From Methylovulum sp. (GTDB lineage Bacteria; Pseudomonadota; Gammaproteobacteria; Methylococcales; Methylomonadaceae): a stretch of DNA of 34,407 nucleotides. The stretch lies in the NCBI GenBank assembly GCA_030689765.1, contig JAUYEP010000295.1:1-34407 (forward strand). The letters run 5' to 3'. A model generated the notes under the pieces. That model saw only the letters and a program-made list of their open reading frames with translations. It was not told the DNA's origin and searched no databases. A program made the translations under genes and the position numbers. This document shows, in pieces, positions 1,753 to 28,437 of the stretch. Within the stretch, counting starts at the first letter, position 1; the number at the start of each line of letters is the position of its first letter.

Positions 1753-2660
1753 ATGAATCCAATCGCCGCCTTCCGTAACCGTTTGCGCCAAATCAATGCC
1801 GAGGTGTTGCATACGCCTATCCCGAGCTTAACTGAAGAAATGGCGCAAACCACCCAACGCTTACGCACGGAGTATGGCGATATTTCACGGGGCACGGGTG
1901 ATCAGCAAGGCATTGCGGCTGCGGTGATTGACTTCCTGCAAAACCATCAGTTGCCTACTTATCGCGACATCAAATATGTCTGTTTTGGTGTATCGTCACC
2001 CTACGGCATCCCTTTAACCCGCGTTATTGAACATGAATCGCTGTTCTCCAAGCTACTCAAAGAAGTCGGGCAACTACAATCCGAACCGCGCAAGTTTCGG
2101 CGCTGTTATCAAGGCTTGCTAAAAGCCTATTTACGTTATCCGGGTCAGCAAAGCGAACACACCACCGGACGTAATAATTGGTTAGCGTTACGCGAATTTC
2201 TGGCGCAACACTGCAAGGCTTTAAAACAGCAAAAACCAGTCTTGGAATGGGCGCAAGCCCTTTATGACCATCGTAATCTGCTGGCGGACAATCCCTGTAA
2301 ACCTTATGCTAAAGCCTTGCTGGCAGGCGATAGCACGGTTGTTGATGAACTTAAAGCCCGGCTTGGCATTGATGACGATACCTGGGTGATGAACGAGTTG
2401 GTACTGGCTCAAGTTCAGGCGGCAACGGCATTGAATGATTCAGCGTTTTTGCCCCAAGTGAAGCCTTTGGTGCAGCTTCTGGAACAGCATTCAGGGTTGA
2501 TCACTAAAGGTCTAGCTTTGTTGCTTAAACGCTATGAAATGTGTTTGGATCATACCGAACATCCTACACTCCGCGAAGCCGCACTAACTCAATGGAAAAG
2601 CCCTTGGTTGGATGCCAATAAACCACTGTGGTATGCACAGATTGGTGAGGCTGCCAATTT
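1753..2660 (+). pseudogene. zorC: ZorC-like EH_Signature-domain protein, truncated at the 3' end
   Basis: ~300 aa ending HPTLREAALTQWKSPWLDANKPLWYAQIGEAA (EH_Signature-like). The ORF then runs into an antisense creA fragment and junk, stopping at 2844. Confidence 0.65.
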
Positions 2661-2768
2661 CCAGGCAGTAGTTATGCAGCCTATTTCTTCGGCTTGGGCA
2701 GGGGCTGCCAAAAAACCAAGGGATAATAAGCTGCAACGGACAAGTATTTTTTTCATAGCATTCTCAAG
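2655..2768 (-). pseudogene. 5' fragment of creA (signal peptide and start of mature protein), inverted relative to the intact copy at 9432
   Basis: Minus-strand MKKILVRCSLLSLGFLAAPAQAEEIGCITTAWKL closely matches the N-terminus of the 9432 ORF (MKKILVRCSLLSLGFLATPAQSEEIGCITTAWKL); homology stops at GCCTGGAAATTG. Confidence 0.88.
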
Positions 2769-2830
2769 TAGATTATGGGTAAGTGTAGGGGCGTTGCAAT
2801 GCGGTATCTCTACAAAGCACTGTATGCACA

Positions 2831-3162: not shown

Positions 3163-3236
3163 GTAAGTATCTACACAAGTTTTATAGCACGTCATTCCGG
3201 AATGACGATGTTCAGGATTTATGTAGATACTTATAC
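3163..3236. repeat. Small inverted-repeat element
   Basis: GTAAGTATCTACA ... TGTAGATACTTATAC arms around an inner CGTCATTCCGGAATGACG palindrome. Confidence 0.6.
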
Positions 3237-3327
3237 TTTGAAAAAAGGGGATCGAGGGGCAGAGGGGCGTATCTAATAAAATCTCCCCTAACCCCTCTTT
3301 TTCAAAGAGGGGGAACTGAATAAGTAC
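3237..3327. mobile_element. MITE-like element copy A (5' end degenerate)
   Basis: TTTGAAAAAAGGGGATCGAGGGGCAGAGGGGCGTATCTAATAAAATCTCCCCTAACCCCTCTTTTTCAAAGAGGGGGAACTGAATAAGTAC; same family as the copies at 7659, 9165, 25699 and 28289. Confidence 0.75.
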
Positions 3328-7467: not shown

Positions 7468-7560
7468 TTCTGTTTCTCCTAATGAACCATTTAATAAATC
7501 GTTTTGTCACCTTGCGCGATGTCTCATAATTTACAGGTAACACCTATCAGATTGTGTGCC

Positions 7561-7612
7561 GGAGTTCAACGGCTTTAGCCGTTGAAAAAAATGGCTGAAG
7601 CCATTTTACTCC
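7561..7612. repeat. Two adjacent hairpins enclosed by a closing stem (three-way-junction palindrome)
   Basis: GGAGT-TCAACGGCTTTAGCCGTTGA-AAAA-AATGGCTGAAGCCATT-TT-ACTCC. Confidence 0.75.
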
Positions 7613-7658
7613 CCCCCTTATTTATTAATGGCTTGGCTCATAGGTGAGTAGCTACATT

Positions 7659-7775
7659 GTAATTATTCACCTCCCCCTTTGAAAAAGGGGGAGGGCAAAG
7701 CGAGGGGGCAGAGGGGATTTATTTAAAAAATCTCCCCTAACCCCTCTTTTTCAAAGAGGGGGACTGAATAATTAC
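7659..7775. mobile_element. MITE-like element copy B
   Basis: GTAATTATTCACCTCCCCC ... GGGGGACTGAATAATTAC, flanked by GCTACATT (7651-7658) and GTTACATT (7776-7783), 7/8 direct repeat. Confidence 0.85.
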
Positions 7776-7830
7776 GTTACATTTACAGATTGATTTCAAC
7801 TTACATTAAACGCCAGCGAGGAGATGATTT

Positions 7831-8610: not shown

Positions 8611-9157
8611 AGGACATCAACAACGGTTGCTGGCCTTGGCGAAAAATTCTATCGCGCATGGTTTACGGACAGGCCGGCCATTACAAATCACTTTGGCTGA
8701 TTTTCCGGCAGAATTGACAGAACAGCGGGCAACTTTTGTAACCTTGCAAAAGCATCATCAGTTGCGCGGTTGTATCGGCATGTTGGAAGCCGTCAGGCCG
8801 CTTGCGGAAGATATTGCGCAAAACGCTTATGCGGCGGCATTCAAAGACCCGCGCTTTGAGCCACTGCAAGCCGATGAACTGGACAAACTGGAGATACATC
8901 TCTCGATACTCACATCGCCAGAACCTATTGTTTTTACCTCTGAAAATGATTTGTTGGGCAAGCTTAAGCCCGGCATAGACGGCTTGATTATCGAAGAAGG
9001 TTATCGGCGCGGCACTTTTTTGCCTTCCGTCTGGGAATCGTTGCCCGAACCGGAACAATTTCTGCGGCATTTGAAACAGAAGGCGGGGTTGCCTTCTAAT
9101 TATTGGTCAGAAACAGTTCGGATTTATCGGTATTGTGCTGAAGTTATACCTTCTTAA
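8597..9157 (+). CDS. amrA: AmmeMemoRadiSam system protein A (AMMECR1 family)
   Basis: ATFVTLQKHHQLRGCIGMLEAVRPLAEDIAQNAYAAAFKDPRFEPL is AMMECR1-like; overlaps amrB by 14 nt. Confidence 0.93.
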   Translation: MSLNKGHQQRLLALAKNSIAHGLRTGRPLQITLADFPAELTEQRATFVTLQKHHQLRGCIGMLEAVRPLAEDIAQNAYAAAFKDPRFEPLQADELDKLEIHLSILTSPEPIVFTSENDLLGKLKPGIDGLIIEEGYRRGTFLPSVWESLPEPEQFLRHLKQKAGLPSNYWSETVRIYRYCAEVIPS

Positions 9158-9164
9158 CACTGGG

Positions 9165-9317
9165 GTAAGCATTCACTTCCCCCTTTGAAAAAGCACCCAA
9201 GGGCATAAAGGGGATCGAGGGGGAGAGCAACGCGAGGGGGCGTATCTAATAAAATCTCCCCTAACCCCTCTTTTTACCCTCTGGGGCACAAAGTCAAAGA
9301 GGGGGAACTGTAAGTAC
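9165..9317. mobile_element. MITE-like element copy C with perfect 8-bp direct repeat
   Basis: GTAAGCATTCACTTCCCCC ... GGGGGAACTGTAAGTAC, flanked by ACACTGGG (9157-9164 and 9318-9325). Confidence 0.88.
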
Positions 9318-9431
9318 ACACTGGGCAGTTTTTTTACGGTCAGATTCTTGGTGGAATATCCTTTCCCAGTTGCTTTATACTCAGCGGCGTACCGCACGTC
9401 AGACCCATCCCCTAACCCACCCGAGAATGCT

Positions 9432-9899
9432 ATGAAAAAAATACTTGTCCGTTGCAGTTTATTATCCCTTGGTTTTTTGGCAACCCCTGCCCAATCCGAA
9501 GAAATAGGCTGTATAACTACCGCCTGGAAATTGATCGGTGCAAACCATAAAGTCTGTGTACAGGCTTATGATGACCCCAAAGTCGAAGGTGTTGCCTGCC
9601 ATATCAGCCAAGCCCGCACCGGTGGTCTTGCCGGAACGTTTGGCGTCGCCGAAGACCCTTCGCAGTTCTCAATTGCCTGCCGTCAGGTAGGCGTCATTAA
9701 AATCAAAGGCAAGTTGCCTGAAGAAGAAACCGCATTCAGTGAAGACACGTCACTCTTTTTTAAAGAAACCCGTGTCACCCGTTTGTTTGATGCCAAACGC
9801 AACACATTGGTGTACGTTGCAGTCAGCCGCAAACTGATTGAAGGTGCGCCGGCTAACAGTATTTCTACGGTTCCCATCATGCCGTGGGCAGGGCAATAG
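9432..9899 (+). CDS. creA: CreA family protein
   Basis: MKKILVRCSLLSLGFLATPAQSEEIGCITTAWKLIGANHKVCVQAYDDPKVEGVACHISQARTGGLAGTFGVAEDPSQFSIACRQVG; start reassigned from 9348 to 9432. Confidence 0.9.
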   Translation: MKKILVRCSLLSLGFLATPAQSEEIGCITTAWKLIGANHKVCVQAYDDPKVEGVACHISQARTGGLAGTFGVAEDPSQFSIACRQVGVIKIKGKLPEEETAFSEDTSLFFKETRVTRLFDAKRNTLVYVAVSRKLIEGAPANSISTVPIMPWAGQ

Positions 9900-25482: not shown

Positions 25483-25698
25483 ATTTCCACACTAAACACT
25501 CAAAATTAACAGGTAAACCCGACCGCCAATGGCAGCGATTTATTTTCATTACCCCATTATAGTCAATGTACTGATAAAAACCCTAAGCCCAACGTTGCAG
25601 GCCGCCATCGCAAATGTTAGCCACCCTATTTTTTTCTTGTAATGGGTGGCATGGAGGATAATATTACGATGTTTAAAGTCCGACGCTTTAAACCAAAC

Positions 25699-25818
25699 GT
25701 AACTATTCAGTCCCCCTCTTTGGAAAAGAGGGGTTAGGGGAGATTTTATTAGATACGCCCCCTCGCGTTGCTCTCCCCCTCAACCCCCCTTTTTCAAAGG
25801 GGGGAGGTGAATACTTAC
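25699..25818. mobile_element. MITE-like element copy D with perfect 8-bp direct repeat
   Basis: GTAACTATTCAGTCCCCCTC ... GGGGGGAGGTGAATACTTAC flanked by AACCAAAC (25691-25698 and 25819-25826). Confidence 0.88.
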
Positions 25819-25845
25819 AACCAAACAACTTTCCGGGAGGATTTC

Positions 25846-28021: not shown

Positions 28022-28288
28022 TGCCGCTACTCCGTGTCTTGAAACATTATTGTTGCAATAACTTAAGCGAATACTATGCCATGCCTTAAATATAATTAAA
28101 AATCAATATATTGTGATCATTAATAGGGTGTGTGCCGAAATTTTGGCAGCATAAATAGCCAATAATATGGCGGTACTGCCTGTCAGACCACGAACGGCTT
28201 AACCTACAAAAACCGAAGGCTTGACTGTTTAAAACATAAGTAGGTGTCCATCAGTTTTTTAACATTGCCCACAAAAGTTAAAATATTT

Positions 28289-28413
28289 GTAACTGTTCAG
28301 TCCCCCTCTTTGGAAAAGAGGGGTTAGGGGAGATTTTATTAGATACGCCCCCTCGCCTTGCTCTCCCCCTTTTTCAAAGGGGGAGAGCAAGGCGAGGGGG
28401 ACTGAATACTTAC
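28289..28413. mobile_element. MITE-like element copy E with perfect 8-bp direct repeat
   Basis: GTAACTGTTCAGTCCCCC ... GGGGGACTGAATACTTAC flanked by AAATATTT (28281-28288 and 28414-28421). Confidence 0.88.
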
Positions 28414-28437
28414 AAATATTTTTGCATGGCTACTTAT

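Follow-up and report, generated by a model that had tools for sequence, protein, structure and literature searches.

A family of short non-coding elements in a Methylovulum genome shares its tips and 8-bp target duplications with IS66-family insertion sequences

Introduction

Inverted repeats of IS66-family insertion sequences start with GTAAGCG, and the repeats that flank these elements are 8 bp long (PMC11946415). A comparable described MITE is MITEPsy1, which has been linked to ISPsy2. It is a non-coding element of ~100 bp with perfect target site duplications (TSDs), has its tips in common with the presumed parent insertion sequence (IS), and inserts into intergenic and sometimes genic DNA; its duplications are 4 bp long and its movement was seen (PMC3189936). 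In the open-access literature searched, we found no MITE family that had been connected with IS66, nor any in Methylobacter.

The elements reported here form a new MITE family within the well-known class of gene-less mobile elements. They resemble MITEPsy1 in their size, lack of coding capacity, perfect duplications, tips in common with a presumed parent and choice of insertion sites. They differ from it in their 8-bp duplications, their presumed IS66 parent and their number (~60 copies), and they are known here from sequence alone. With single-ORF IS66 elements the family has in common GTAA-initial terminal repeats, 8-bp TSDs and, for the elements of sister Methylobacter species, tips identical over 11-17 bp; unlike the MITE, those elements carry a transposase gene, whereas the MITE interior consists of C-rich hairpins. 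We consider it very probable, from the tips and the duplications, that a single-ORF transposase of the IS66 family, of the type found in sister genomes, has mobilised the MITE family in trans.

Copy C and its sister copies in the window

The window is the whole stretch of DNA analysed, a 34,407-nucleotide contig (JAUYEP010000295.1, C152) of a 3.33-Mb genome that is assembled into 412 contigs with an estimated completeness of 92%. Copy C and its borders are as follows.

9165..9317, plus strand: MITE copy C, 153 bp, left tip GTAAGCATTCACTTCCCCC, right tip ...GGGGGAACTGTAAGTAC, from the family alignment
9157..9164, no strand: left 8-bp target duplication of copy C, ACACTGGG
9318..9325, no strand: right 8-bp target duplication of copy C, ACACTGGG

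Copy C is non-coding and is bordered on both sides by a perfect ACACTGGG duplication (8/8). The gene order is AMMECR1, then copy C, then the CreA gene; the AMMECR1 stop codon TAA occupies 9155-9157, and its last base is the first base of the left TSD. Compared with its sister copies, copy C carries an additional 19 bp in the loop of the right hairpin, and its right tip lacks 3 bp (TGTAAGTAC in place of TGAATAAGTAC); the TSD is still perfect. A 125-bp inverted duplication (92%) is present at window positions 2655-2779 and 9409-9533 and spans the start of the CreA gene.

Four further copies lie in the window.

3237..3327 (about), plus strand: MITE copy A, right part only
7659..7775, plus strand: MITE copy B, 117 bp, flanked by radical-SAM and Memo genes
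25699..25818, minus strand: MITE copy D, 120 bp, with identical TSDs AACCAAAC at 25691-25698 and 25819-25826
28289..28413, minus strand: MITE copy E, 125 bp, with identical TSDs AAATATTT at 28281-28288 and 28414-28421

An earlier note on this DNA had described five related elements, four of them with well-defined ends and with 8-bp direct repeats at their exact borders, and this description holds. Copies B, C, D and E have well-defined ends, and their direct repeats match at 8/8 in C, D and E and at 7/8 in B (GCTACATT at 7651-7658 and GTTACATT at 7776-7783). Copy A is a truncated fusion without a TSD; on the left, the end of another repeat (...TATGTAGATACTTAT) stands where its own end would be. 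All MITE copies of the window are intergenic. The left duplication of copy B is adjoined by a 111-bp repeat at window 7543-7655, of which there are at least four further copies in the genome (C319, C336, C118 and C232).

Target duplications across the genome

A genome-wide search with the 16-bp core CCCCTAACCCCTCTTT returned 62 exact matches and 96 at up to two mismatches, part of these 96 being members of a second repeat family described below; a reversed control returned 2. Seventy-four stretches were extracted, and 60 of them had scorable ends. The flanking repeats matched at 8/8 in 26 of the 60 copies and at 7/8 in another 12, and the longest exact flanking repeat among the scored copies was 8 bp, never longer. 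When the left flank of one copy was compared with the right flank of another, 8/8 matches arose in 0.08% of cases and 7/8 matches in 0.14%. Copy C, which was excluded by the end filter of the TSD script because its right tip is deleted, is outside the 60 and is an additional 8/8 case. The repeat family is therefore real, and the 8-bp duplications, whose absence from other genomic copies would have spoken against the earlier proposal, recur genome-wide and far above chance.

The 38 copies with a TSD are 88-149 bp long (copy C, 153 bp) and have the terminal inverted repeats GTAAnTATTCA at both ends. Tip columns 1-11 (GTAAnTATTCA) are near-invariant, with exceptions at position 5 and, at the right end only, at position 4; the consensus ends are GTAAnTATTCAGTCCCC and GTAAnTATTCACCTCCCC. 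The interior is made up of C-rich/G-rich hairpins, two or three in number, and does not represent a transposase gene with a deletion. An autonomous IS66 element encodes its own DDE transposase, and a length of 88-153 bp leaves no room for such a gene. The family thus has the features of a MITE: it is short, non-coding and present in ~60 copies, with terminal inverted repeats, target duplications and empty sites. One locus of this genome, L016, has its left flank from one locus and its right flank from another (L004, L005); either two copies have recombined or the assembly was joined at this repeat.

Empty sites and copies in relatives

Joined flanks containing one copy of the TSD were searched against 20 genomes of the genus, and the junctions were re-aligned by script. 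At least six insertion sites are unoccupied in relatives, and each of them shows the 8-mer once; the earlier note had suggested a search for empty sites in sister strains. The L093 site is contiguous and MITE-free in five genomes, at up to 93% identity, and the L007 site is so in three. Empty sites were also found for L076, L025, L066 and L019, and less clean ones for L074 and L014. The joined flanks of L007 are open in one frame over the whole stretch, and this DNA is contiguous in the relatives, which suggests that the insertion breaks a coding sequence.

The MITE is absent at copies B, C and E from the alignable relatives, whose intergenic DNA is too diverged for base-exact borders; the empty sites above are therefore those of other loci. 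The neighbourhood of copy D is not contiguous in relatives. MITE copies bearing 8-bp TSDs are present in relatives that include G003, G002, G019, G021, G016 and G036. This indicates that the family predates the present species. A looser search recovered relatives in 21 of 61 genomes. The exact full-element pattern, applied to 274 gammaproteobacterial genomes, matched only the present genome because the pattern is strict, and a search of plasmids gave no match.

IS66-family elements of sister genomes carry the MITE tips

The IS66 DDE profile PF03050 was sought in 13 MITE-bearing relatives and was present in 7 of them; MITE-bearing G018, G026, G019 and G016 gave no match to PF03050, so the MITE and the IS are often not together. 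With a script that looks for GTA...TAC ends flanked by 8-bp repeats, single-gene IS66-family insertion sequences of about 1.65-1.70 kb that end in GTAATTATTCAGACCCC were found in sister Methylobacter/Methylococcaceae genomes. Three of these are intact and have perfect 8-bp duplications.

G011 IS66 element, 1651 bp: GTTTGCTC; GTAATTATTCAGACCC at both ends
G003 IS66 element, 1658 bp: ACAAGATG; one end reads GTAATTATTCATCCCC
G029 IS66 element, 1676 bp: TAATTGTT, GTAACTATTCAGACCCC

The tips of all three read GTAAyTATTCAGACCCy, save one G003 end. Another lineage in G029 has GTAATCGTTTAGCCCCCC at its ends and, in most copies, 8-bp repeats as well. Each of the three elements contains one long ORF of ~525 aa, and the encoded proteins exceed the curated cut-offs of both NF033517 ('IS66 family transposase') and PF03050. 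These single-ORF elements may correspond to the ISBst12-like group in ISfinder naming. A comparison of the G011 protein with GTDB genomes yielded 32 loci, and nearly all of those containing the element end carry GTAATTATTCAG[AT]CCCC; the common tip is also present in nearly all further named Methylococcales loci and in one Cycloclasticus record. By sequence, G011 and G003 correspond to the named records L160 and L164.

The right tip of the MITE, GTAAnTATTCAGTCCCC, is the IS66 tip sequence, and the left tip, GTAAnTATTCACCTCCCCC, agrees with it over 11 bases. In Methylobacter sp. KS41 and Ja1-D4 the IS tip GTAATTATTCAGTCCCC equals the MITE right-tip consensus except for the variable fifth base, and four MITE copies of the present genome (L007, L051, L030 and L084) keep an IS-like left end, GTAAyTATTCAGACCCC. 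The MITE therefore has what is expected of an IS66-mobilised element, namely inverted repeats beginning with GTAA, 8-bp direct repeats, and tips found on intact IS66-family elements (those of G011, G003 and G029 and the named Methylococcales records). The comparison of termini that the earlier note had called for thus came out in its favour, with 11-17 bp of tip and the 8-bp TSD common to both. Homology is confined to ~17 bp per tip, with no recognisable common interior, so an origin of the MITE by internal deletion is not demonstrated.

A probable helper and alternative explanations

The DDE chemistry of the IS66 family implies binding of the tips, cleavage, staggered insertion and repair to a duplication. 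Acting on the MITE, as tip identity and TSD length suggest it does, the IS66 transposase would bind the GTAAnTATTCA...TGAATAnTTAC tips that the MITE and the IS have in common and would cleave at GTAA/TTAC. The target would be cut with an 8-bp stagger, and insertion followed by repair would leave the 8-bp duplication. The hairpins are not needed for this scheme.

No intact IS66 element with matching tips was found in the present 412-contig assembly, and the helper can therefore not be placed in this genome. The only IS66 traces are a remnant on C337, with 8 stops and 46% identity, and a divergent element on C231, with tips GTAACTTCTCATTA and no TSD. A multicopy IS may drop out of a short-read assembly, so this absence is no proof. 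The helper is probably an element of the GTAATTATTCAGACCCC type that has been lost, is unassembled or is external. The mobilisation by IS66 put forward in the earlier note is accordingly supported by the tips, the TSD length and the empty sites, with a helper that is not in the assembly.

The MITEs might instead have been moved by the C231-type element of their own genome rather than by the GTAATTATTCAGACCCC type. Among the IS66 sequences of the assembly, C231 alone has recognisable tips; these match those of the MITE at 9/11 positions (GTAACTTCTCA vs GTAACTATTCA). Past position 11, however, the match is poor (TTACCCACAGG vs GTCCCCC), the C231 reading frame looks broken and is split over overlapping frames, and the element lacks a TSD, whereas the GTAATTATTCAGACCCC type matches the MITE tips over 11-17 bp; we regard mobilisation by C231 as improbable. 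Duplications of ~8 bp can also be produced by other IS families, and with a transposase from one of these the IS66 tip identity would be coincidental. Such a coincidence would have to extend to ten fixed tip bases and the C-run, which independent IS66 elements from many species show at either end, and to a TSD length that is equal in these elements and in the MITE, and is thus very hard to credit.

Strong folding (RNA z = -5.3 for copy B and -3.5 for copy C) and the intergenic position of the window copies would suit immobile host hairpins, such as terminators, REP-like sequences or processing sites, that are kept for their function and are flanked by chance repeats. The TSDs, however, are far commoner than chance, the L007 copy appears to break an open reading frame whose DNA is contiguous in relatives, and copy C has neither a terminator nor an Rfam match: no promoter or terminator signal was found inside it, and an Rfam scan of the window returned one tRNA and nothing else. 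The empty sites already refute immobility, which leaves this explanation with next to no probability. Later co-option of individual copies by the host is possible.

For mobilisation in trans by a GTAATTATTCAGACCCC-type transposase, tip sequences, TSD length, empty sites and a presumed helper are all available, so that the helper relation lends itself to a direct test with a single transposase and a single substrate of 120 bp. The MITE copies could also be used as insertion markers among closely related methane oxidisers.

A second MITE and the recurring C-rich core

A second MITE of 116 bp, with ends CATAAGTATCTACACA/TGTGTAGATACTCATG, has at least 11 full copies in the genome (loci L041, L052/L295, L058/L302, L099/L300, L298 and L301). 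Its duplications are 9-12 bp long, mostly 10, and it inserts into C-rich hairpins such as CCCTTTGAAAAAGGG, also inside several copies of the IS66-type MITE. This choice of site presumably resembles the IS231/IS4-type targeting of GGGN5CCC. An end related to the 116-bp MITE lies at window 3164-3236, and longer relatives with its ends are found near many contig ends, as expected of a high-copy element.

The C-rich interior with its double hairpin (AAATCTCCCCTAACCCCTCTTTTTCAAAGAGGGGG, frequently along with CCCCCTTTGAAAAAGGGGGATTGAGGGGGATTT) could conceivably be a module that is passed on among repeats whose ends are unrelated, and that also offers another MITE a favoured landing site, a suggestion that we make with considerable doubt. 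This interior occurs within IS66 tips and, in a close variant, with GGTAACTCGCAATAAATA ends; a Mannheimia phage and further families of the Gammaproteobacteria have it between other flanks. The variant is the second repeat family of the present genome (L094, L095, L098 and L020), which has a similar core, CCCCTAACCCCCCTTTTATAAAGGGGGG, different ends, GGTAACTCGCAATAAATA, and possibly a 3-bp TTA duplication. The core is found with unrelated flanks in two other gammaproteobacterial families (L272, L273 and L274) and in the Mannheimia phage (L264 601-638; KP137440.1:5602-5639), and these stretches are near-identical over 30-38 bases, which is beyond chance.
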